Assembly (NCBI GenBank): GCA_027576995.1
Contig: JANBQC010000635.1
Location: forward strand, 1 to 15,626
Direction of reading: 5' to 3'
DNA from: Dimargaris cristalligena
Taxonomy: Eukaryota; Kickxellomycota; Dimargaritomycetes; Dimargaritales; Dimargaritaceae
Length of the DNA: 15,626 bases
The position numbers were made by a program, and so were the translations under genes. Under the pieces are notes generated by a model. The model saw only the letters and a list, made by a program, of their open reading frames with translations. It did not search any database and was not told the DNA's origin. Of this stretch, positions 1 through 15,626 are shown piece by piece (the stretch's first letter is position 1; each line of letters begins with the position of its first letter).

Positions 1-2783
1 CATCCTCATCCCCTGCTGGTTCCCCAATCCTTTTTGTCAAGAAAAAAGATGGTTCTCTTCGCCTCTGTGTTGACTATCGTAGTCTAAACAACATCACCAT
101 CAAAAATCGCTACCCTCTCCCCTTAATTGGTGAGCTTCTGGACCGCCTACGTACTGCCAAAGTTTTTAGCAAAATTGATCTTCGAGGTGCTTATAATCTA
201 ATTCGAATTGCTAAGGGAGAGGAGTGGAAAACTGCATTTAGAACTCGCTACGGGCATTATGAATATACAGTTATGCCTTTTGGCCTCTGTAATGCACCTG
301 CCTCATTCCAACACCTGATGAATGATATCCTTTCTGATTGTCTGGATAAATTTGCTATTGCATATCTAGACGACGTACTTGTATTCAGTCCTAATATGGA
401 ATCCCATATCTCCCACACTAGGGAAGTCCTATCTTGCCTCAGAAAAGCCTCCTTATTTGCCAAATTAGAAAAATGTGAATTCCATAAATCAAGTGTGGAG
501 TTCCTTGGTTACATTGTCACAAACTCTGGTATTGAAATAGACCCATCTAAGATTGATTCAATCCAATCCTGTCCAATTCTCCGCAGTGTTAAGGATATCC
601 AGTCCTTCTTAGGTCTTGCCAACTTCTACCGCTAATTTGTTCGAAATTTCTCATCAATTACAGCACCACTCACTCGCCTCCTTTGTAAGGATACTCCATG
701 GGATTGGTCACCCGAAGCCCAAGCCGCCTTTGATGCCCTTAAATCTGCATTTACATCAGCCCCAGTTCTTCAATACTTTGACCCGTCCCAGCCTATAACT
801 ATTGAAACTGATGCCTCTGATTTTGCCATTGGTGGAGTCCTCTCGCAACCAGATAATGATGGTCTTCTCCACCCTATTGTATTCCATTCTCGAAAATTCA
901 CTCCTGCAGAACTGAACTATGAAATTTATGATAAGGAAATGTTAGCAATAGTGGAGTCTTTCAAGGTATGGCATGCCTACCTTGAGGGTGCTCATTTCCA
1001 AATCACAATGCTCACCGACCATAAGAACTTGGAATATTTTACCATTACAAAATCCCTAAATTGCCGCCAAGTCCATTGGGCCTAACTCTTGGCTAACTAT
1101 AACTTTGTTATTAAGTATATCCCTGGCCATAAAAATGGCAAGGCTGATGCCCTATCTCGCCGCCCTGACTTTTTCCCTAAGGAGGGGAGTGACACCTTGT
1201 GTAATAGTTCACAAGCACTACTAAAGTCCAACCAATTTATGATTTGTGCACTCGATACCTTAACCTCCTCCTCCCTTCTTATTGATGATATACACACTAG
1301 TTATACATCTGATCCTGCCCTAGCCAAAGTATTAGCCTCTTTACGTGAACCATTACTCAATTCCCCAACCGAAAATACCAATAACCTACTACCTTTTTCC
1401 CTGGTTGATGATATTATTCTTTACGATGGACTTATCTATGTCCCTGATACTACCAGTATCAAATTACGCTTACTCCAAGATCACCATGACTCCCCAACTG
1501 CTGGCCATTTTGGTCGAGCTAAAACCCTTGAATTGCTATCCCAGAATTACTACTGGCCCAAAATGCGCCAATTTATGGAAGAATATGTATCCTCTTGTGA
1601 CCAATGTAATTGCTGCAAACCAGTTTGCCACAAACCTTATGGACTACTCCAGTCCCTTCCAATCCCTGAAGGCCCTTGGAAATCAATCTCTATGGATTAT
1701 ATTGTTGGCCTTCCAGCCTCCAGCGGCTTTACTGCACTACTAGTAGTTGTTGACCGCTTTACTAAAATGGCACACTTTATTCCAACCACTGATAATGTTG
1801 ATGCCCCCACTACTGCCCAATTATTTCTAACCCATATCTATAAATACCATGGCCTCCCTATTGATATTGTTTCAGATCGAGGCTCCACCTTTACCTCCCA
1901 TTTCTGGTCTGCCCTGATGGAACTCCTTCATATCAAGTGCAACTTATCAACTACCTTCCACCCCCAATCAGATGGCCAAACAGAGCAAGTAAACCAAGTC
2001 CTAGAACAATACCTTCGCCTCTACTGTGACCACCTCCAGGATAATTGGGTTGATCTCCTTCCCCTTGCTGAATTTTCTTACAATAACTCAAAGCACTCAA
2101 CTACCAAAACTAGCCCATTCTTTGCTAATACTGCCCGTCACCCAATTGCATTACCAATGTCTGCTGCAGTTGCAAAATGTAATACACCCGCAGTAACTGA
2201 TTTATCCTCAGAACTAATTGAGGTTCATAATTCTTTAGTTAAGAATATTGAATCTGCAAACCACCGGTATGCTACCTTTTACAATCGTAAACACCTGCCT
2301 GAGCCTGACCTGTCTATTGGCTCTAAAGTCTGGCTCCTTCGAAAACACATCAAGACCACCCGACCTAGCTCAAAACTTGACTACAACCACTTAGGTCCTT
2401 TTACCATCCTTGCCAAAGTTGGCCAACGGGCCTATCGCCTAGACCTACCACTATCAATGAGTATACACCCTGTATTCCATGTCTCCCTCCTTGAACCCCT
2501 TATTGGGAATACTATTCCTGGTCGCACTCAAGTTCCTCCACCCCCAATTGAGGTTAATAATGAGTATGAATATGAGGTTGAGGATATCCTAGATAGTCGC
2601 CTCCATTATGGAAAATTACAGTATCTAATTGACTGGAAAGGCTATGATGCCAGTGCTCGCACCTGGGAACCTGCTACAAATATTGTAAGGTCCCCAGACC
2701 TTGTCCATCGTTTCCACCACCTGTACCCTAACAAGCCAGGACCTTGCAGAGCTCGGCCTTCAAAGGGGGAGCTACTGTCATGA
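1..2783 (+). pseudogene. pol: Ty3/gypsy Pol polyprotein (RT-RNase H-integrase-chromodomain), 5' partial, two stops
   Basis: The frame starts at base 3 and runs to the TGA at 2781-2783 (about 926 codons). Numbering codons from base 3, RT begins near its FVKKKDG block and has the catalytic YLDD at 363-374. RNase H follows, with ETDAS (Asp at 810-812) and TDHKNL near 1014. Integrase has a zinc-binding HHCC module (His near 1482-1487, CDQC at 1596-1607), then Asp565 (1695), Asp625 (1875) and Glu661 (1983), giving the D-35-E spacing. A GPF motif near 2394 and a chromodomain from about 2574 (EVEDILDS...YLIDWKGY...TWEP) close the protein; chromodomains direct integration toward marked chromatin. TAA stops at 633-635 (after NFYR) and 1083-1085 (after RQVHWA) break it. 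The frame does not shift at either stop, so both are point mutations. ATG and TTG starts inside this span are not real gene starts. Confidence 0.93.
2762..2770 (+). other. Polypurine tract for plus-strand priming
   Basis: The purine run AAAGGGGGA lies 5 bases before the TG of the 3' LTR and overlaps the last codons of pol. In LTR elements this position holds the primer for plus-strand DNA synthesis. The overlap of the pol 3' end with the polypurine tract and LTR is usual for compact chromoviruses. Confidence 0.75.
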
Positions 2784-3143
2784 CCGGTAAATTTGAACTA
2801 TATAAATAACCCACCATATAAGTAAAAAAACCCATATCAACAAATGGGTAAAATTAATATCCAACATTACCAAGATATATACCCATCACCCTACTATGTT
2901 TTATTTCCCAGTGTTTATTCCTCATATTATCTAGTTACTGATTTGTATCTATTAGTTATTATCATTCTTCCCCTGCCCCTTGGGTTGGGATATAACCCCA
3001 ACCATTTTCCCTTAGCTTGCTCTTCAGCTTGCAACTCCTCTTTGTTTTCCTTTTCTGATATCTAGTTTAATAAATCCTAATTCCATCCTTCAAAGTCCCG
3101 CCTGTCTTATGGTACCTGGCCTCATCTTTAGCTCGTCATAACA
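2776..3143 (+). repeat. 3' long terminal repeat of the Ty3/gypsy element
   Basis: The proposed 368-bp LTR begins TGTCATGAC and ends GTCATAACA, so its ends form a nearly perfect 9-bp inverted repeat with TG...CA termini. Inside are a TATA box (TATAAATA, 2801-2808) and a poly(A) signal (AATAAA, 3069-3074), in the order expected for U3-R-U5. A hairpin (GGTTGGG 2983-2989 with CCCAACC 2997-3003) sits in the middle. The last six bases of pol, including its TGA, lie within the LTR. The boundaries were inferred from the termini and the polypurine tract, because the 5' LTR is not in the window for comparison. Confidence 0.8.
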
Positions 3144-3560
3144 TGTTGGGATAAACTTGCAGTCACACTTTATCAACATTAAACCAGGTTCAAAAGACTA
3201 TCAATAAATAAACATAAAATTACTAGTAGTTACTGAGAATAACATACTGTAAAGAACTGAAATCAAATCCTTAAAAACTGAACTTTATTCAAAAAGATAG
3301 ATGATAAGAAGGGAAAGGTGATGATAAACTTGCTGTTCTAAGAGGTTGCAGCAAGTGGGAGTATTTATACTCAAAAGGGGAAGCCTAAATGAAAAGATAG
3401 ATAGATAATAGAGAAAGGGAGGGGAGTTTCTAGATAATAGTATTAGTCATCACAAAGGATATGTAATACTTGGGTAACCAATAAATTTAATGTGAAACAA
3501 TAGAAGGGAAAAAGAGAAAGCTATTTTTAACTGTACTTTGAACAGGGGTGCAGTCAGGTT
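3144..3560 (-). repeat. Possible antisense LTR or LTR remnant abutting the gypsy LTR
   Basis: Read on the minus strand, this stretch has an LTR-like order: a TATA-type box near 3362-3371 (GTATAAATAC), a poly(A)-type AATAAA near 3288-3293, and an end reading ATCCCAACA at 3144. The plus-strand start TGTTGGGAT directly follows the CA of the gypsy LTR. No matching distal TG end, internal domain or target-site duplication was found, so the upper boundary is arbitrary. It could equally be ordinary AT-rich intergenic DNA. Confidence 0.25.
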
Positions 3561-5717
3561 AGGGGTAGGGGTGCATCATAGCCAAGGGTATATAATATAC
3601 TAATAGAAAAAATACTATACTAATGAAAATGGAGGGAAAATAACTCTACTCATCAGGGGCAGGGGCAGGGGCTCATTCACTCATCAGGGGCATACTTCTG
3701 ATAAGTGCAAAAAATGGATTAAAAATAAAAATAAGTAAAAAATGTGGTAAGTTCACCACAATGGGGTTGCCTGTGTCTATTTCCCAGGATGGGTCAAGAG
3801 GGGGTATAATTAATGGGTCACTTATTTGTGTGACCCAAAAAGAATCTTAATCTAAATAAATATAGAAAGTGATTTGTATATGAGAGCATAGCAAGAGGCA
3901 GTTAGAAACCAGGGTCTATAGTAATGGGTCCAGACTACTTAATGGAATTTTTATTCAGAAGCCATCCATCAAAGAACCAGCATAATAGAGAGTGGACATT
4001 GTACTTTCATCAAAATAATTAGCCACTGCCACACAGCTGCTTCCTTTAGCATGGCTACTGGTGAAATATGAGGTGCTGGGATTTAAAATATTCATTCCAT
4101 AAACTATACCTCAGATGAAGTATATAAACAGATGCCAGGGCACATAAATTTCTCATAAAAAATATAATAAAATAGTTCTAACTGTACATACCTTTAAAAA
4201 AGCCCACTTGATGGGCTTGATTATTGGTGCAATTGGATTGGCCATAGAGTAATCCCTACTAGGCTGATATATGTTGCCTTTGTAAATAAACTTGAATTTT
4301 TGCATGATTATGGATTCTATAGGTTTAATGATACAAGTGAGAAAATCTGTAGGGGACAAAAATCCTGTGGTTTATATAGTTGGAAAAAAGACTTATTTCA
4401 CTTTGCTTGGCTAACTGGCCCCTTCAGGTGGCCAAAGGGGATAGCAACAGCTAACCACACCATGAAGCTTAATGCAAGCCCCACACTGTGGAGAAAAGGA
4501 TGGGGCATTCTTACAAGATGATCAAGTCATGGCATTTGCCATCAGTCTAGGTACAGCCAATAGCAATTGCTCCATCCCAAAATGACCACAGTAGCCTATA
4601 ATGTTGCTTCAGACATTGCAGTTCCTTTACCAATAATGGGAATAGTGGGGGGGGGGGGGTACTGGCCCATTTGGCCCTTTTCAATGCCTAAAGTTTAGTT
4701 GCATTATTTAGTCATGTTTTACTTTGATATTATGTCCACCCTTCCAACTTAACCCAAATATGGATACTGCTAGTCTTTTTTAACCACTGGCCCTGATAGT
4801 GGGCACACACCTTTTCCCAGTTGATGATGGGCCTTTCACAGACAATGATACTTTCCACCCTAATGCGACAGCATTTGTTTGATCACCAAGCCCATTGTTT
4901 TTTGTCCCTGTTACAGCCAAGCATGCAGCTGCCCTTCACCCCGAAACTTCCTACTGGTTGAAAGGAAAAGGAACCTTCATAAATGTCCTTATCCATTCCC
5001 AGTATGCCTTTCTATACATTCTTATCCGCACTTCCATTATATATTCCTTTCCGATTCCTACATCATCTTGTGACTAGCCATGTCCTATTTTTCTGTCCCG
5101 TCCTTCTAATTAAAAGACAAATAATGGTGGTTATATATTTTTTGTCCATAGCCTAGGCTTACTATACCTAATTTTAGAAGATTAGGAGGTGTGATCAAGC
5201 TTTAGAAATTATTATAAAACCAAAATATGCCTAATGTCAAGAAACATTTGATTGTTTCGCAAAGTGGCCATCAGTATGGCCATGATTGTTATCTTTTAAA
5301 GGAACACGTACTAGATTTAAGAGATCCCTGGCGTATTGACGTGAAATGGTATCACAAATTTTATATTTCCAATTGAAAGATGTTTTAAGCCTAATAGTCA
5401 GCATTTAAAGGAGATATAAGTCTAACTGCAGTTTCAGGGAGCGCAACATTTAGACCATGTCCCCAAATGAACTTGGGGATGCCATCCGGATGCATGGCTG
5501 GGCCATCAATACCAATAGTATGGACAAGACACTGTAACTAGTTGTTGTTTTTTTGCCGTTTCTTATAGATACTTATTTGTTACCATATTATTGTCATGTA
5601 CATGCAAGTGTATGATCGAGATGTGAGTTCTGTAGTCAGTGTGGTCAGATGCCATTTGGTAGAATAGTTATGTGGAATAAAGCTACCCACATATATAAGA
5701 AGGCACGGAGATTAGAG
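3561..5717. other. AT-rich intergenic region without a recognisable gene
   Basis: Only short, unconvincing ORFs occur here (none over 75 codons, none with recognisable motifs). Visible structure includes a 14-bp direct repeat around a GGGGCA run (3648-3692), a run of 13 G at 4647-4659, a small hairpin at 4201-4217, and two adjacent dyads at 5460-5498. The stretch may be decayed repeat DNA. Confidence 0.6.
3648..3692. repeat. Short direct repeat flanking a GGGGCA tandem run
   Basis: ACTCATCAGGGGCA occurs at 3648-3661 and again at 3679-3692. Between them the GGGGCA unit is repeated, giving a G-rich run on the plus strand. This looks like local slippage or a microsatellite; no function is implied. 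Confidence 0.7.
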
Positions 5718-5896
5718 CAGTGTCATGTGCTTTTACAGCCTAGATGCCAACATATTGGGGAAGTTCATTCAGGCTGTATAGCGAAACATCCATTAAATGG
5801 GGCCAAAATTGCTGGTTAGAATATTTTCCCCCATATATTCTCCCATACACATATTGTGTATAACATTATACAGCTGGTTTGAATTTCACCCATATT
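5718..5896 (+). repeat. Left arm of a long imperfect inverted repeat
   Basis: The core 5761-5896 matches the reverse complement of 6547-6683 at roughly 80% by eye. Shared blocks include AAGTTCATTCAGGCTGTATA, then TATACAGCTGGTTTGAATTT. Weaker similarity, with an indel of about 20 bases, extends out to about 5718 (CTTTTACA block). The arms enclose about 650 bp. A long-TIR element of the MITE or foldback type or an inverted duplication would both fit. No target-site duplication was identified. Confidence 0.8.
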
Positions 5897-6546: not shown

Positions 6547-6747
6547 AGATATGGGTAAAATTCAAACCAGCTGTATAAGGTTTTACAATATACGTGTATG
6601 GGCGAATATATGTGAGAATAGCTTTTAACCAGTAATATTGGCCGCATCCAATGGATTTTTCGTTATACAGCCTGAATGAACTTCTCCCATATGTTCTCAA
6701 TTGCTGGAATGTGAATATTATGGGGTGTAAAAGGACTGTGTCATCCG
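6547..6747 (-). repeat. Right arm of the long imperfect inverted repeat
   Basis: This is the inverted partner of 5718-5896. The best-matching part is 6547-6683; similarity weakens to about 6747, where TGTAAAAGG mirrors the outer block of the left arm. The differences are mostly single-base changes plus one or two small indels, so the two arms diverged after duplication and are not recent copies. Confidence 0.8.
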
Positions 6748-9230
6748 AATAGTATGCATGGTGTACCAGTTAATATGAGGAGGGTGGGCAGTTGCCATCG
6801 ATCTTTCAGATCAATTTATTACATGTACGAGAAGGGGCACAGGTCAGGTATGATAAAATGGCTTCCCTGCTAATGGGTCAGTCTGATTGGCTATGGCCTC
6901 GAAGGCCAAACTATTCGTGAAATAGTTCAATAGGTGTAACGACTGGTGGAATTACAGGGGGCCACCTCCCATACTTGAGTCGACAATTCGTCGAAATATA
7001 TATATATATATATATATTGATATACCCTCCAAGAGCGCGCGCACCCGCCTCGTTCATTGTCAGTGAGTGTAAAAAGTGGGGCTTGGGAAGCGCAACCGAC
7101 AGCGTCAGAGCGCACAAGGATTGGCTTGGCTCTTTTATATATATATTACTCTTGAGTCTGCGGTGCGCGTACAAACGTAATAGGACAAGTTATATGGCAT
7201 GGTGCGGTGGGTAGGACCAAAACTAGTGATTCCAGTAAGCGCATTTGAACGGTGGAAATGTTGGGGAGGGAATGAGGTAATTTTAGGCTGCTCTCCTCCA
7301 AGGTAGTGTGGATAAGTAAACTGAACGAGGGTGTCAAATAGGTGTCCAAAGGATTGGATGATACTGTACTTTTCAATTATCTGGTGAGTGCACAACGGAG
7401 GCATAAGTAATTTGTCAATATAAAAACAGAGATAGCTCTGTGTGTATCAGGGAATTAAAATCCCACCTGCGTAGGAGTATGCCACTATACCTGCCAAGTA
7501 GTTGGACATGGCCGTGCTATAATCTAACGGTAATGTGGTGGTTTAGAAAGATTTCTGAGTAACACACCATGGAGCTCTAATGATGGATATGGCTCACTCG
7601 CTGGGTGTCCCAGTCCCATGGGCCATCTGAGCATACGAATCAACTGACAATGGAATGGTCATTGAGAAAGCTATGTGTTTGAGGTCACCCTCAAAACCGT
7701 GTCAGCATCACTGAAAAGCGACAAGCTGGATCGCATAGGCATGTAGATGCCCAATATCATGAATCATTTACAAAAATGTGTGGTCTAACAATGAGGCCAA
7801 CCCCGTCAGTGGAAATCCGTTGCCTGTTAACGACAAGTGTATTTCACTGACTAGTTTCCATGCCAGTTTAGGTAAATGACAAACAGACTCCGGTCCATGG
7901 GTGGTAGGGTTTGCTAATTAAATACCCTGTCTCCTCTCACAATCAAGGTTTATAAAATCCAAATCTCGTGGGCATTATGAGAAGGACACTCGCATCGGGT
8001 CTTAACGGCCAGGTCTCTTCCTCCTTCACTTACAGGCACTCGCCCCCACTTACACTTGTGTCGGTCGATCCTCTCTCCCTCAGTTTAAAATTTTCCTGTA
8101 GATTTTCTCCTTGGCCGTCACTTCCGTTCTGCCCTCCTCAAGCAGTTAAATGTCAGCTACCCATCACCCACATACTGTCGTAGGTGTATGCCACCAGTGG
8201 CTCAAGGGCAATCACTATCTAAAAAATGGAAATACCGGTCTGCTGATGGTAATCAGAGGAAGTCGGACATTGCTTTCACTCCTGCCTCTGAAAATAGTTG
8301 GATATCTCCGGAGGGAGGGGGTACAGCCGACCGATCCCTTCTATGAACCATCTAGAGAGTCCATTTCACCACCCTAAAGGATGTTTTCTATTTGGTGGTA
8401 TACCCCTACAGGGCCATGGGCGGAAAGCTGGTGCTGTGGAGGATAATGACTTGGACACTGGAGAGAAACCCGTGTGGGTGTTTTGGATAATCTATACCTA
8501 TAAGGTGATTCGAATGTACCACTTTCATGGCCCCATAGTGGTAGATATGCCTTGGCCTGTCTCTCAGCTCATACTGATACTGGAGAAAGAGACAGTTAAA
8601 TTCTCGGTTATGCATGAATATAGCATGTTATTTAGAGCAATCACAATAGCCGCGACATGTTCCTTGTTGATAGATCCTCATGGGCATTTTCATTTCTTTA
8701 CCAAGCTTAGCAATATCTGTATCCACCCACCAACGGCAATCGCGTGGATTCTTGGAATAGATACCTTGAACCTTCAGGCGCGACAACCATACTGATAGTA
8801 GCTATTACCTGGCCGTGGCTGTAATCCCCAACCACTCTAAATAATTTTCTGATGTATCCACCGGATTTTCCTGAGTTTTTATTTTCTCGTATATTCTTTG
8901 CCATATCAGTTGCATAGGATCCAGCCTCATTAAAGCGAGTTCCAACAGATCAATCATCACTGAAAAATAACGCTTTATAGTCAGCACCACCACTCATGAG
9001 TTCAACGGTATAGGGCATTTTAGTATGGAAGCCATGGTTAGGGAGATGGGTGATACATTGTCATTGGTCGAGATGAGGAATTGTCTGAACTCGAAGCTGT
9101 CCGTTCCCTCTGATGGCTGCAGAACCTCTGGTTGTATAGGCGGCTACCCAGTGCTGTGGTATCAACATTATTCCCCATACAGGGGTGACGCCACTATTAC
9201 CCGAAAAAATTCCCACTATAGGCCTACCCT
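6748..9230. other. Intergenic region without a convincing gene
   Basis: ORFs up to 165 codons occur, but they overlap on both strands and show no known motif. A TATA-type sequence (TTTATAAAAT, about 7950-7959) stands just upstream of a short ORF at 7968; that pair is not enough for a call. The 22-bp AT microsatellite is the only clear element. Weak similarity to the region upstream of the minus-strand gene may begin around 9190 (ATAGGCC block). Confidence 0.5.
6996..7017. repeat. (AT)n microsatellite
   Basis: An uninterrupted alternating AT run of 22 bases, preceded by a near-palindrome (CGACAATTCGTCG, 6981-6993). Several short ORFs that read through it encode Tyr-Ile repeats and are artefacts of the microsatellite. 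Confidence 0.9.
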
Positions 9231-9565
9231 ACTACTGACCTGCATTAAAAATGACCCACCCTCCTTTCTGTATTTCTAATACCTTCTTTATCCTATTCGG
9301 CCTTTCAGTATTATCACTATACTTAACAGCCTAAGCGGGCCTTTTGAAGTTCACATAAGTAACAAGTGGAAGCCTCTCCTCTCTTTTGGGATATTATCAT
9401 TACCTATTCTCTTGAACTTTACCATTTGACCTTCTGGCCCCCCATTTACTCTTAGCCAGCTCTTTTTCAAGCACTTACCTCCCTATTATTATCATTTTCG
9501 CAATAAACGGTATATATCTTTTTATTTGACATTGACTTGCTATCCACCTACCCCCATCCGCCACC
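9231..9565 (+). promoter_or_regulatory. Conserved upstream block of the kinase-like gene (copy 1)
   Basis: This DNA is alignable with the reverse complement of 14772-15141, upstream of the minus-strand gene. The best-preserved pieces, in the same order in both, are ACTACTG..TTGCAT/TGCATTAAAAATG (from 9231), a GTATTAT segment, CCTAAGCGGGCCTT (9330-9343), AATAAACGGTAT (9502-9513) and TTGCTATCCAC..CCGCCACC before the ATG. AATAAACGGTAT continues into TATATAT, a likely TATA box about 50 bp before the ATG. Conservation in patches over about 330 bp suggests a shared promoter. Which patches bind factors cannot be told from the sequence. Confidence 0.7.
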
Positions 9566-9724
9566 ATGACCGCATCTACCCCCGCCCCGGTCTCCTCCAA
9601 CTCGGCGAACCTCCCGTCTTCTGCAGCTAGGGAGTCGCCCTCCGCGAATTTGGACTGCGCTGACAGGGAGGTTACTTCCTCCTCCGGGATTCCAAAGTCC
9701 AACTGCGTGAGGCCAGATTCCAAT
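9566..9724 (+). repeat. Shared 53-codon leader, copy 1
   Basis: These 159 coding bases match the leader of the minus-strand gene (14613-14771) at 137/159 positions; the 53 residues match at 40/53. Homology stops immediately after the codons for RPDSN, and the following sequence is unrelated. Residues begin MTASTPAPVS and include PSSAARES and GIPKSNC. The leader has no recognised targeting motif. Confidence 0.9.
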
Positions 9725-10432
9725 AGTAATACATATGCAAAACGTAAACATCGACTGAACATGCGGGAGGTGCAGGCCATGCAGTTTATCAAGGAGCATA
9801 CGACCATACCGGTTCCGGACATATACAGCTACCGTATTGACGGGTCCGATTCGATTATTGAAATGGAACGCATTGCGGGTATCACCCTTAAAGAGTGTAT
9901 TGCCCAAAACCGGGTAACGACGGACCATATACAGCATATCGCCGAACAACTCAACGACTACATCCACCAGATGCAGGGATTGCAAAGTGATGTAGTAGGG
10001 CCCTGTATCTGGACCGATAGTGATACTGAACAAGCATTGCACGATCCATTTGTCCCGTTTCCTACACCCATGCCGATGCACGAGGCCGAAGCGTTTATGA
10101 TGAACAATCTGTTACAACACAGAGAGAGCCGTCCTCCCACCGGGTTTACGCAGATGTTTTCCAAGTACCTAAAGCAACATACGTATACCATTAATCTAAC
10201 GCACGGAGATTTGCTGCCGCGTAATATCATGGTGGATCCCGATACGTGCCAAATCACCGGCATTCTGGACTGGGAGTTTAGCGGCTTTTATCCCGAGTAC
10301 TGGGAATATTCGCGAATGACATCCCATCCGCCTTTTGATTCAGTGTGGTTCTCAATTATTGATTTAATCAAACCCGAATACCTAGTGGAGGCTTGTTATC
10401 TAAATGTGTACATCCAACACATGATCCAGTAG
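9566..10432 (+). CDS. APH-like (aminoglycoside phosphotransferase family) kinase-fold protein with modular N-terminal leader
   Basis: This 288-residue protein belongs to the fungal APH/choline-kinase-like phosphotransferase family, usually soluble and of unknown substrate. Residues 1-53 are a Ser/Thr/Pro/Asn-rich leader, probably disordered, without a hydrophobic signal peptide. Residues 65-110 hold the N-lobe pattern (EVQAMQFI..HT.IPVP..., then IIEMERIAGITL). The catalytic loop is HGDLLPRN at 213-220 (Asp215, Asn220) and the metal-binding segment is ILDWEFSGF at 233-241 (Asp235). A Lys at 59 aligns with the ATP-contacting Lys of relatives, but the glycine-rich strand normally before it is replaced by the leader. 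Actual activity is therefore uncertain, although the C-lobe motifs are intact. The ATG sits in GCCACCATG, identical to the context of the minus-strand relative. No intron is needed. It is not evidence of drug resistance; fungal APH-like proteins rarely have known substrates. Confidence 0.85.
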   Translation: MTASTPAPVSSNSANLPSSAARESPSANLDCADREVTSSSGIPKSNCVRPDSNSNTYAKRKHRLNMREVQAMQFIKEHTTIPVPDIYSYRIDGSDSIIEMERIAGITLKECIAQNRVTTDHIQHIAEQLNDYIHQMQGLQSDVVGPCIWTDSDTEQALHDPFVPFPTPMPMHEAEAFMMNNLLQHRESRPPTGFTQMFSKYLKQHTYTINLTHGDLLPRNIMVDPDTCQITGILDWEFSGFYPEYWEYSRMTSHPPFDSVWFSIIDLIKPEYLVEACYLNVYIQHMIQ

Positions 10433-10434
10433 CG

Positions 10435-10629
10435 ATGTCGAATAAATTATACCATGTAAGTTATCTGGGGCAGTCGGTGGATCATAAATATGTAATTTGT
10501 GTCGCATCGAAAGGTACCTACCCTTTATATTATGAGGTGGTGAGCAAAATCGGCGGCTTTCAGTAAAAAGGAGATGAATTAGGCTATATTTACCACGCGA
10601 CGGCGGGCTATGTACATGGTTCTGCACGT
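10435..10629 (+). pseudogene. Decayed ORF directly after the kinase-like gene, possibly related to the NCQHW-domain protein
   Basis: An ATG two bases after the kinase stop opens a 43-codon frame (MSNKLYHVSYLGQS..., ending KIGGFQ at a TAA, 10564-10566). The same frame continues with protein-like sequence (KGDELGYIYHATAGYVHG) up to a TAG at 10627-10629. The pattern LY.V.Y, then His with hydrophobic residues, then a G-Y-aromatic stretch resembles the start of the domain encoded at 14054-14551 (NLYVVVY...QHLLLF...GGFYG). That similarity is judged by eye and weak. It may be the remnant of a neighbouring gene, or a 3' region with chance coding potential; an AATAAA at 10441-10446 inside it could serve as the kinase poly(A) signal. 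Confidence 0.35.
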
Positions 10630-13600
10630 TAGTTGGGCAATCTTAACGATGATAAATATGATACAATAGTTGCAGGATTTCCGAGAATAAAATGTGGATA
10701 CGAAAAATAAAACCACCAATGGTTCTACTAAGCGTGATTGGGATTGCGGATCACGAGTCAGAATGGCCATAGGCGTCGTTTCGTACATTAAAGACAAACG
10801 AGTCCCGTCATAAATAGGTGATACCCAACTAGGTTTCCAAGGCACCTTTTGGGTTTCCTAAATTGAGAGGAAACTGGATATTAAATGTCATTTTACATTT
10901 ATTGGTTTGTAGGGTAATTCGGGAAACGCTTTTGATGATCTGATTTCTAGAAATTTCAAGAGTGCCATGAGAGGGACGCCCTGACAATTCTAACGTAGGT
11001 TAGAAAGCGTGAGTGGGACAAGGTTATATTTATAGCTCCCGCCACTTACAACACTCAACGGTACCGGCATCACTCCAAAGGTTTAATTTCTACCAGTAAA
11101 CCTAAAGATTAAGGTTAGTGCTCCAACCTGAATGAATGCCTGGATGCAATCAAGGAAGAGGCCACTGTCAGCCAGAGTCAATCTAGAATTTGTTCTCATT
11201 ATTTTTGTAAAGGTTAGGTGTTTATAAATACTTGTATCCGTGGTTCACTTTCATTCCAACAACCATCTTAAGTAGCAGTAGTAAAATAGTGCAGCACTAT
11301 GTAGTCTATTCACCCTTAGTTAGGGACATTATATTAAGTGGTAAGTTCGGGAATCTTGCCGGGAGCTGCATATCAAGTTGGTATTATAGTGCATCTCTTT
11401 AATTATTTATCTTGCCCTCCGCACTTAAGATTACAATGACCGTGACACTGAGAAAAAAGTCCCCTCCCCGGTCGCTAGGTACCAAGTACAGAATACATTA
11501 TGGTCACGAATTCAGCTCTAATCTCCTAATTAAGGTGGCTGGTGAAGTAACGTTAAAGCTGGCAGGGAAATTGGTTGCCAGTGAGAGCACTTTGAGAACA
11601 CACGTCGAGTTACCGAGACCTTCCAGAGATCTTGAACAGTGGCCTTTCCCAGGTCCCAGAAAATATCCGACTAGAAGAAGAAAAATGCACAGCTTCTTGA
11701 ACCATAATACTGTTCTCTGGATTCACCTCAGCAGTTTTCTCAAACACATTATTCACCTGCTGGCTAGTCCATCGCCCATCTATGTTTTAGGTCATGACGG
11801 AGTTGTCACAAAATATTTTGTCAATTAGTAACTTTTACGTACTGGTACTTAAGAATAATCCAAATCATATTTACCTACGAGTGTAATCTATATTTCCTGG
11901 TTTGAACTTTTTCTGGGCCGGTAAGCCATTGAGTAGATTCTTGAGTTTTTCACCTTTTTGGTCTAACCAATGGACCCTCTTTAAAAGTAAAAAGAACTAC
12001 AGCCTACCGGAGCAGTTTACTGACTAGAAATACGATTGCCCCTTTGGCCATCTGCGTTGGTTATCAGATAGGTATTACACTAGCAAGAGAAAGTATCTCT
12101 CTGTGGCAGGGTAGCGGTAGCTATTGGTTATGATGGTAGCCGATAAGTGCATATCATCCCGATCTGCTGCCTGATACAACTTTGTGGAGTATTCACAATT
12201 TTTCAGTAAATGGTGGGTCAAGCAAGATGAGGGAGTAGACCCAGCATCAATAAGTGATATGTTGTAAGGGGAGCTCCCGGTACAAAATTGGTAGCCACCT
12301 TGCTGAGTAGATATTAAAGGACAGAAATGCCCACTACGTGTCTGGTCTATTAAGGAGCTTATATTAGGAGTCCAGGGGAAGGGGCAAGACCGTGTAAAAA
12401 AATGCTGCTTAGATAATGAGGAAACGTCGGTGACTTTTATAGCAGACGGTTCCCAATTTTCTTGGGATAATGTCTCACCACATCCTCCCATTTTGCTACT
12501 ACCCCACTTCATTGGCCCCCCATACATTAGTAATGATGGCGGCTGTATTAAATGATAGACATAGGTCACATGTTGGTGAATATATATAGACCCAATGTAT
12601 AGCCCATCCATAGGTCATGAGCTTTCAACCACTATTTGGTTCCAGATATCCATCTACCCATTTGATCCATTTATAGTGGGGCCGCTTGAACCAGTTTCCG
12701 TAGCCCAGTAGTCAGCTAGGGGTATAAAAGTGAATAATAACAGGAAGGAACCCCCTCCCCCCCAAGAACAAGGAAAGATGGTGAGACTAATGGGGAATCT
12801 TTCGGTAATCTACTATCAAAGTTTTTGTAAAGTGGCCGCGGAGGTTATATGTTCTATCGGCGTTGTTACTATAAGGGGTTACGGTGGCGGTACACACCAG
12901 TTAATGAACAGTAATAAGATTGGTCACAATATTCTCTTCTAGTTGGTGTTTAACATTATCATATCTATATTCGAGAATATTTGGTTTGAGCATAGAGAAT
13001 TGAACCAGCAGTTTACTCTCATCACATTGCTTAAGACAATCTTCCCTGGGCGACTCCCCACTTTGAAACGCCCAGAAAATCATGTAATTCTAGTGGAGGA
13101 TTCAAAGCAAGGCATTTTAAAATTAATGGGGGAGGAATAAATTGGAATATACTGGGATAGACTACATCAGTTACTCTACTCACCACTACTTCACAGGAGT
13201 ATTTCCTCGCCCATCAAGTGCGTATTTGTTTGCTGAAATAATTCTAATTCTGGAAATTGAAACCTCGAAACTGTTTTTAAAAAGCTAGACTAAAATATAG
13301 TGATATACATAATAACGATCGTTTATCTTTTATATATAGATTTATGTTTACCATTGTTGTGGCAGAACTTAATGTCGCATTACAATAAAGTCGTTAACCT
13401 TAGGTTCGCACTGGCTTAATCGGTGACAGTTTTGTTGGAAACTAATATCACGGGTGGAAAACTCGCCCTTGGCGGGGACACTGCTTGCCTGGACTCCAGA
13501 CAGGGACAGGCTGGGCACACTGGATGGGCTTGGGACCAATAGCAATATGGACAAGATGGCGCCGGGTATCGAGAACAATTAAGAGTAAATCAAATGGTAT

Positions 13601-14053
13601 AAAACTGTCGGCCTTTATTGAGAGAACATCAGCAGGGTATCTATAAGAAAGTCGGTGATAGGAACAAACACAAGTACAGTGACCTGGTGATGCTCAAGGT
13701 CCGTCTTGCTAGTAGGCAAGGGTGGATGTTATTATAGTGCCAGAATACACAATTGACGGCAATGAATAATGAAGAGAACTAATTTGGAAGATAAATGTAA
13801 TAATGAAGGCCACCCAATAGTGGCAGGTTCGGGGTACAAGGGCTGGGGGGGGCACGCCCCAACTTCCTACAAGAACAGTCTTACAATAATAATAAATGTT
13901 GGAAGGATGGTCCAGGCCGCAGAAGTACCAGTTTGGGAAGAAGGATGAAGACCTACCTCCGGTGGTGGTGGACTTTACCATTTCCAAAGATTAGGAATAA
14001 TTTGGCCAGGTTACACTTCTAGGGTTTAAGTAGGCCCTGCCAAAACAACGCCA
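10630..14053. other. Intergenic region between the two leader genes, no convincing gene
   Basis: The first 200 bases may continue the decayed ORF above, but with many stops. Two TATA-like sequences (GGTTATATTTATAG near 11022 and TTTATAAATAC near 11220) are each followed by C/A-rich stretches that could be transcription starts. A GGTATAAAA lies near 12720 and another near 13590. ORFs of 138 codons (11412-11828, plus) and 178 codons (12075-12611, minus) show no family motifs. Nothing else could be supported. Confidence 0.5.
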
Positions 14054-14565
14054 TTATACAGCGCCTATATAAACCTCGCAGTCATGGCATAATAAAGTAC
14101 CTTCATTGTCTTGCGTATCATGGTTTTTATGGTCATGAATTAGTTCATCGCGCCAAGGGGACCAGTCACTTATGATTTGGCGTACAACCCGCATGCCGGT
14201 ATTTCGTTCCTCCCGATTAATAACATCGTGGGCATAAAGCCGCTCTAACACTGCTATCACCCAATGTTGGCAATTCCGATAATTTCGCGCTAGATCCGTT
14301 GAATTATTCGCCAGCTCGGTATTATTAACTCGCACTTGTGTAGCGTGGGGGGTGATGTCGCGTATACCCGATTTAATAAGTACCATGTCCTCAACACGGC
14401 CGTTACGTTCCATGGTTTCCGAGTAGCTTTGGTATATATAGTTCCCGTAAAAGCCTCCTATTTCATACACTATTCCGCGGGTGTTTTCGCCTGTGCTACG
14501 AAACAGTAAAAGATGCTGATTCTCACTATCAAAGTCACTGGTATATACCACTACATATAGATTGT

Positions 14566-14575
14566 GGGGGGGGGG
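14566..14575 (-). other. C10 homopolymer at the frame junction
   Basis: Ten G on the plus strand are ten C in the sense of the gene. The upstream frame reads Glu-Thr-Pro-Pro-Pro-Gln through the tract, and the downstream frame reads Pro-Pro-His-Asn-Leu-Tyr. Loss of one C or gain of two joins leader and domain. Such tracts are prone to both sequencing error and real length change. Confidence 0.85.
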
Positions 14576-14612
14576 TTTCTACATGGTCTTCGTTGTCGAT
14601 AGACGCACTGCA

Positions 14613-14771
14613 GTTGGAGTCTGGCCTCGCGCAGTTGGTCTTTGGAATTCCGGAGGGAGAAGTTGCCTCCCTATCGGTGTAGTCCAAATTCGTGAAGAGC
14701 GACTCCCTAGCTGCAGACGATGGGAGGCTCGCCGAGTTGGGGGAGACCGGGGCGGGGGTAGATGTGGCCAT
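14613..14771 (-). repeat. Shared 53-codon leader, copy 2
   Basis: Begins MATSTPAPVS and ends ...GIPKTNCARPDSN. It is collinear with the leader at 9566-9724 without a single indel over 159 bases. Of 22 base differences, 13 codons change the residue and 7 are silent, so the protein diverges faster than the DNA would suggest under strong constraint. In this gene the leader is followed by a 14-residue linker rich in Asp, Glu and Pro. Confidence 0.9.
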
Positions 14772-15141
14772 GGTGGCGGTTGAGAGGAAGTGGATAACAA
14801 GGTAACAACAAATATTTTTAATTTACTTTTTTTTTTAGAAAAAAAAACGAGGTATACGCAGAATAAATACCGTTTATTAAAAAATAGTAACCTTAGAGGC
14901 GATAATAACTAGAGAAGGAAATAGATGGGTGCAAACCGGAGAACGAAGGACTCAGCGGTAGAATTCGAAAGGGCAGCCAATGACACCTTCCAAAGAGAGG
15001 TGGGAATTCCGCCAGTTACCTAAGTGCGCTTGGAAGGCCCGCTTAGGCCGTTAATTATAATACTAATATTATAAGGTCAAAGGAAAAATAGGAGTTGGAA
15101 ATGCAGAAAGGGGTCGGACATTTTTGATGCAAGACAGTAGT
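14772..15141 (-). promoter_or_regulatory. Conserved upstream block of the NCQHW-domain gene (copy 2)
   Basis: This is the inverted counterpart of 9231-9565. Read on the minus strand it holds ACTACTGTCTTGCATCAAAA (from 15141), a TTATAAT/GTATTATAATTAAC segment, CCTAAGCGGGCCTT (15047-15034), AATAAACGGTAT (14878-14867) and TTGTTATCCACTTCC..CCGCCACC before the ATG. Spacing from CCTAAGCGGGCCTT to the ATG is about 40 bp longer than in copy 1, partly from an A/T-rich palindromic stretch at 14827-14847. Partial similarity may continue outward to about 15260 after an insertion. Confidence 0.7.
14827..14847. repeat. T10-AG-A9 palindromic tract in the 5' region
   Basis: Ten T, then AG, then nine A form a simple inverted repeat within the predicted 5' untranslated region of the minus-strand gene. 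It is absent from the other copy, so it arose after the two diverged. It could alter transcript folding or nucleosome placement, but no function is shown. Confidence 0.8.
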
Positions 15142-15626
15142 GTAAGGATGACAGTCACTTACTCCTTACTTTGAGTGACCTATTCTGGCCTCAAGGTTCG
15201 CCTACTAGTTGGCCTATCAGGTGAGGAATGTCGGAAAATAACGGGAGTGGGGTGCCCACCGGATGTCACTTCTTTCCCAGCTCTTCATCGCCATAACAAT
15301 GCCACCTACCGCTGTAGGCAATTGGCAGACTGCTGGATGGTACTACATATACACATTAGATGTTGAATATGCGCGGATAGCTGATTGTCGTGGGCAATAA
15401 TCCTAGTAACGACTGGAAGGCACATCACAGAAGGTAACACACAAGCGGATGATACAAAGCGGTGATTTATAGACAATACATGTGGTATACATCGGTAGCA
15501 CAGGATTGCTAGTAAAAGGGGGCATTGGATAGTCGCTAACTTTATACAGAATAACTATTGGGATTGGCACTGGTTTATATAGCCGGGCTGGCTAAGGACA
15601 AATGCGTCACAACAGCACAAAGCATG
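15142..15626. other. Flank upstream of the minus-strand gene, no gene seen
   Basis: The longest ORF here is 63 codons and has no recognisable motif. On the minus strand a TATA-like CTATATAAACC lies near 15576-15586. The part up to about 15260 may contain diverged remnants of the upstream block, such as TGATAGGCC read on the minus strand. Nothing else could be supported. Confidence 0.5.

Follow-up and report, generated by a model that had tools for sequence, protein, structure and literature searches.

A solo-LTR-like mobile unit with an open leader reading frame at the 5' ends of two unrelated genes in Dimargaris cristalligena

Two unrelated genes of Dimargaris cristalligena, an obligate mycoparasite according to the accessible part of its description (PMC6784888), begin with one and the same dispersed unit, which is mobile and inserts with 4-bp target duplications. 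This shared block is probably a solo LTR, or the LTR-like end, of a D. cristalligena retrotransposon family, supplying promoter, start codon and leader to genes. More tentatively, and with less than even confidence, we entertain the wider view that such a transposon end is a movable source of promoter, start codon and N-terminal tag, that it has repeatedly made fused genes, and that the tag has been kept by selection on the host protein.

How might the unit create a gene? We envision that it carries a promoter, a start codon and a 56-codon frame that is open to its 3' edge and presumably represents the start of the first protein encoded by the element itself. Insertion just 5' of a host gene, or within its first codons, would in the right frame add promoter, start and N-terminal leader in one step, and thus produce a new expressed protein fused at its N-terminus; in principle, one third of insertions before a coding frame would have this outcome. 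Transcription from the putative promoter of the unit would be followed by initiation at an ATG in GCCACC context and by translation through the open edge into the following sequence. Probably, an APH kinase gene and a DUF6540 gene were captured in this manner, and the fused genes were later duplicated.

The unit in the window and in the genome

The window, by which we mean the whole stretch of 15,626 nucleotides analyzed here, is contig C623 of a surveyed genome of 27.09 Mb in 779 contigs. A first-pass annotation had aligned positions 9231-9723 (plus strand) with 15141-14614 (minus strand) and had described homologous upstream DNA, a common start context and 53 homologous leader codons in front of unrelated bodies. 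All of this holds: the aligned DNA 5' of the ATGs measures 335 bp in the plus copy and 370 bp in the minus copy, GCCACCATG is common to both, and the leader regions are 84% identical over 201 bp (E 1.6e-56), which excludes chance likeness, whereas the bodies belong to APH (PF01636) and DUF6540 (PF20174, NCQHW). The homology is longer than first aligned, running from 15347 to 14604 in the minus copy and from about 9027 to 9733 in the plus copy. The features are as follows.

9027..9733, plus strand: solo-LTR-like element before the APH gene (from alignment with other copies; homology to the DUF6540-like remnant stops at 9026)
9566..9733, plus strand: leader reading frame in this element, 56 codons, from GCCACC-ATG to the element edge
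9734..10432, plus strand: APH-type (PF01636) kinase body, in frame with the leader
14604..15347, minus strand: second solo-LTR-like element, with its 5' end TGTAGTACCATCC at 15347 and its 3' edge ...AGTGCG at 14604
14604..14771, minus strand: leader reading frame in the second element
14054..14603, minus strand: DUF6540 (PF20174, NCQHW) body; in the assembly its frame differs from that of the leader (ORF 14054-14551)
8742..9026, minus strand: broken DUF6540-like remnant adjoining the 5' end of the plus-strand element (77% to contig C712)
3248..3760, plus strand: unoccupied relative of the insertion site of the C26 element (copy c09), with the target TTTA at 3364-3367

The plus element has its 3' edge, ...AATACA, at 9733, and its 5' limit, TGGAAGCCAT, would lie at about 9026/9027. 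In the minus element, 168 nt separate the A of the ATG from the 3' edge, and the flanks of the element, TATA and TCTA, agree in three of four letters. The C712 segment that resembles the remnant at 8742-9026 is itself a weak DUF6540 match.

The leader is by no means restricted to these two loci, a restriction that would have refuted the first-pass proposal. A genome search with its 53 residues, as the first-pass annotation had proposed, returned 57 places at E <= 10 and 44 at E <= 0.001; a composite leader of the commoner class returned 63 at E <= 1 and 52 at E <= 0.001, and both searches combined give 53 distinct places at E <= 0.001. Thirty of the 57 places were read, eight of which belong to class A (like the window leaders) and 22 to class B. 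Complete copies are 708-776 bp long and have the form TGTAGT...AGTACA. The class B ends read TGTAGTGCCATCCGGAGG... and ...CCCAGGTAGTACA, and class B homology mostly extends from about 540-620 bp 5' of the ATG to about 168 bp past its first base (longest 90 of 380 pairwise alignments). A search for the 5' end pattern with up to three mismatches gives 32 places, and its reversed control gives none. The 14-bp CCTAAGCGGGCCTT block, also suggested as a search key, proved unsuitable as a family marker: it is exact at three places only, and with one mismatch it gives 10 matches versus 18 for the reversed control.

Insertion has left its trace at the ends of the unit. Among the 17 class B copies that have both ends (c10, c20, c21, c22 and c23 lack one), ten are flanked by an exact 4-bp target duplication, compared with 0.25 expected, and none by a duplication of 3, 5 or 6 bp; flank swapping among the copies yields four matches in 272 pairs, equivalent to the expected 0.25. 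The body-bearing copies c02 and c03 were excluded from this count because their 3' ends do not fit the pattern; the body-bearing copies have eroded ends and no clean target duplication. Joined flanks find matches across the joint in two of the 17 copies. Those of c09 (C26) align to window 3248-3760, to L063 and to L044, with one TTTA there and two in the copy; those of c18 match across the joint at eight places. As a minor observation, window positions 5749-5895 and 6549-6695 form the arms of an inverted repeat (85%) belonging to another dispersed family, and the joined flanks of c18 match across the joint at this site, as if the element had inserted into a family copy. Two paralogous loci, L042 (C712) and L044 (C190), contain the same rearranged piece, a leader start followed by an inverted upstream part.

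Junctions with the bodies and the number of captures

Three of the 30 copies read have a body in frame, one has a body out of frame and 26 have none. The in-frame fusions are APH on the plus strand of C623 (288 codons), APH on C32 (288 codons) and DUF6540 on C537 (239 codons). APH and DUF6540 are the only two body types among these 30 copies, which does not support the modular family envisaged in the first-pass annotation; among the leader search matches, an open frame of more than 165 aa is found only with body-bearing leaders. Six of the 27 frames of at least 85 codons downstream of body-free copies were compared with Pfam and gave no match. At C162:874 (L029, 1041 onward), a 256-codon frame without Pfam match starts from the element edge, out of phase with the leader; it is possibly a third body or an interrupted exon.

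The window ORF at 9566-10432 matches PF01636 at E 1.9e-14, with 54.4 bits against a cut-off of 23.2, over profile positions 35-207 of 239. The catalytic motif of APH kinases is HGD....N. The catalytic loop reads HGDLLPRN in the window copy and HGELLPSN in the C32 copy (L062), and with HGE in place of HGD the latter fusion may be inactive. The depositors' gene model H4R33_000992 (P0002), a prediction, includes the leader, which is identical to that of the C32 fusion; a second D. cristalligena record, P0001, begins within the body and is uninformative on the leader. For DUF6540 (PF20174) the scores lie around the cut-off of 27 bits: the C537 copy is marginal at 27.9, and the window copy reaches 26.8 as ORF 14054-14551, just below the cut-off, and 28.4 in a six-frame genome search. 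The window minus-strand leader frame stops after 78 codons, with the body in a different frame, and the intact DUF6540 fusion is the C537 paralogue. No DUF6540 fusion was found in the protein database at E <= 1 among 89 candidates.

In the original alignment of the two window copies, the shared leader comprised 53 codons, and homology seemed to end sharply after RPDSN. The break is indeed the same in both genes, but homology runs three codons further: RPDSN stands three codons before the edge of the unit, which falls at residue 56/57, and the alignment breaks where it does because the element ends there. All four body-bearing copies align with the other copies; in the APH pair the 5' part is ragged. 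Judged by match ranges, both bodies appear to have leaderless relatives, with matches that begin no more than two residues from the edge. For the C537 DUF6540 protein, the match to its C773 paralogue starts at residue 57 (67% identity over 183 residues, by match range); C773 was the only leaderless relative in this search, in which the other DUF6540 places did not appear. The APH protein matches two C541 places from residue 55 (again by match ranges), and its other body matches cover later parts only. APH relatives of other organisms vary at this end: about a dozen other residues take the place of the leader in three, two carry long, different extensions and one starts inside the body. Apparently leaderless bodies and bodiless leaders thus meet at the edge of a mobile unit.

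Both fusions were duplicated together with flanking DNA. Homology between the C623 and C32 APH copies covers at least window 8368-10439 and takes in upstream DNA, and the DUF6540 pair likewise has DNA past the unit in common; each fusion is therefore older than its duplication. A tree built from 15 of the 30 copies groups all four body-bearing elements in a single clade (95/97), a result compatible with two captures by one active subfamily as well as with one capture followed by exchange. The latter would mean that a single fusion arose and that the leader block was then moved between genes by recombination or deletion inside an APH-DUF6540 pair. The clade would follow naturally, and APH matches lie on six of the eight contigs that match DUF6540, which would have helped such an exchange; both junctions, however, coincide with the element edge, a point rarely hit by random deletion or crossover, and this argues for two insertions. 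Moreover, the tree held half of the copies read, and the clade may represent the subfamily that was active at the time. We hold movement of the leader between genes to be rather unlikely and clearly prefer two insertions over one capture with exchange. The first-pass annotation had proposed a regulatory region plus leader recombined onto different bodies. Two unrelated bodies, many loci and a common break remain of this proposal, but the module is a mobile unit rather than a recombining gene segment, and domain shuffling was rejected as the main mechanism because the unit inserts with target duplications.

APH and DUF6540 make up a recurrent gene pair in this genome. Genes or fragments of both occur together on C541, C773, C712, C190, C105 and C623, and on C773, C712, C190 and C105 APH is followed by DUF6540 on one strand. 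Several members are short fragments, and some of the APH matches contain stops.

The leader reading frame and its fate in fusions

The leader has the properties of a coding sequence that is open to the edge of the unit. Among 21 of the 22 class B copies (c23, which has no 3' end, was left out), the ATG lies exactly 56 codons (168 nt) before the 3' edge in 19, and the leader is exactly 168 nt long in 20. Across 17 copies, a single indel event falls into the 168-nt leader, compared with 97 in 757 upstream alignment columns. Codon statistics were obtained from 20 class B copies, c08 being left out on account of a 14-nt gap. Their mean pairwise divergence is 0.16, 0.16 and 0.265 at the three codon positions (190 pairs) and 0.27 upstream; third positions thus drift like non-coding DNA, whereas the first two are restrained. 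Amino-acid changes from the majority number 225 versus 278 in simulation, which is a mild effect. Five of the 20 gap-free leaders contain a stop codon, in each case at codon 41, a position with CGA or CAA in some copies and TGA or TAA in others. Taken together, the pattern fits a past coding constraint at the level of the element, followed by decay after insertion.

Is the leader translated together with the bodies? It is conceivable that the element came to lie before both genes by chance and that their true starts are located further downstream. The frame from the leader start closes within 92 codons in 26 of the 30 copies read, and at the window minus-strand gene leader and body are out of frame, as chance placement would predict. 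Three intact in-frame fusions speak against it. So does the leader of the APH fusion, which has been conserved since the fused gene was duplicated, whereas that of the DUF6540 fusion gives no such sign. In the APH pair, dN/dS is 0.28 in the leader and 0.286 in the body, and seven leader codons carry an amino-acid change versus 11.3 in a simulation corrected for transitions only (P = 0.017); the APH leader thus appears to be under purifying selection like its body. A simulation with the same correction gave no signal of selection on the leader between the two DUF6540 copies (P = 0.49). All in all, we consider chance placement unlikely. As to the promoter, identity between the APH copies is 90% across the 300 bp that precede the ATG, and it is 73% in the 3' flank; because the DNA upstream of the element is also 90% identical, the former value is not evidence for promoter constraint.

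What might the leader contribute to a fused protein? Ser, Thr, Pro and Ala make up 55-62% of its residues in three copies, and it is polar, with a highest 15-residue Kyte-Doolittle mean of 0.07-0.43 in the same number of copies (by hydropathy only). This composition favors a disordered tag over a targeting signal, and nothing suggests the shared localization that the first-pass annotation had held possible. Three leaders examined by hydropathy lack the hydrophobic N-terminal segment typical of secreted effectors with a signal peptide. In agreement with the first-pass annotation, none of the 30 leaders read has the Crinkler motif LxLFLAK among its first 60 residues; the absence of both features led us to reject a Crinkler-type or effector family. 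In a search for the leader in other species, which reaches proteins of 158-504 aa sharing exact words, P0002 was the only match at E <= 10 among 15 candidates.

Solo-LTR character and relation to known systems

The unit behaves like a solo LTR, and we infer its LTR nature from its ends and duplications; we call it LTR-like because a complete element was not found. Among the 30 of 57 leader loci that were read, there is no pair of LTRs around a retroelement interior and no two-LTR relative with gag-pol, primer-binding site and PPT, and the positions of RT matches are inconsistent with one; in the unit itself, too, no primer-binding site was recognized. The genome holds 22 RVT_1 and eight RVT_2 places, and none of them provides a fitting Ty3- or copia-type partner beside a leader. 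The RT place nearest to any leader, on C723, is 1.6 kb away on the opposite strand, and the only one within 10 kb of a same-strand leader is the Ty3/gypsy element of the window, 9.0 kb upstream of the APH leader. The pol of this element (RT, integrase, chromodomain) occupies window 3-2783 and is followed, by eye, by an unrelated LTR-like sequence, TGTCATGACC...GTCATAACA, at about 2776-3143; with this different sequence adjoining its 3' end, the gypsy element was rejected as partner of the unit.

Could the unit instead be a short non-autonomous transposon of another class, with its own promoter and a small ORF and with the same effect on host genes? We regard this as quite unlikely: the missing complete retroelement with these ends would be explained, as would the single leader per locus in 20 loci read together with as much as 4 kb of downstream DNA (save C443, with two adjacent copies, and C119, with one copy interrupted by about 300 bp), but the TG start in 15 and the CA end in 13 of 17 class B copies, a terminal inversion of about 9 bp only, the 4-bp duplications and the length all fit solo LTRs, and the open frame at the edge is understandable if the leader once continued into an interior.

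If the unit is an LTR, a known counterpart may be Ty1 of yeast, in which Gag begins inside the LTR. The likeness lies in a start codon within the LTR and a frame open to the edge; the LTR-encoded piece of Ty1, however, is much shorter, whereas that of the Dimargaris unit comprises 56 codons and occurs in fusion with host genes. The unit resembles Crinkler (CRN) effectors in that these, too, place one N-terminal leader, marked by an LxLFLAK-type motif, on several unrelated bodies, but the Dimargaris leader has neither this motif nor a hydrophobic start, and its module is mobile DNA that duplicates its target on insertion. The solo-LTR-like reading thereby corrects a tempting interpretation as a modular effector family.

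LTRs as host promoters are already documented. Those in front of mammalian NAIP genes serve as promoters and have been recruited repeatedly, according to the available part of that report (PMC1781489). The likeness is an LTR before a gene acting as its promoter, a role that would apply to the Dimargaris unit only by inference; in the portion of the NAIP account at hand, transcription starts in the LTRs, whereas the Dimargaris unit also brings a start codon and 56 in-frame codons. The novelty would thus consist in a variant of LTR exaptation that adds a start codon and a coding leader. In the literature covered, which mostly excludes subscription journals, we found no earlier description of the leader or the family. 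With more than 50 leader copies in the genome, and four of the 30 read bearing bodies, one can count directly how often fusions arise and what becomes of them.

A mobile element upstream of fungal genes is also seen in Fusarium oxysporum, where MITEs are present in the promoters of effector genes, as stated in the accessible part of the source (PMC3599309). Compared by description only, the Fusarium case concerns presence in promoters, whereas the Dimargaris unit supplies coding sequence. Four body-free elements of our set (L068, L037, L073 and L072) lie, by eye, roughly 0.4-1.1 kb upstream of signal-peptide-like frames, a placement that may be due to chance.
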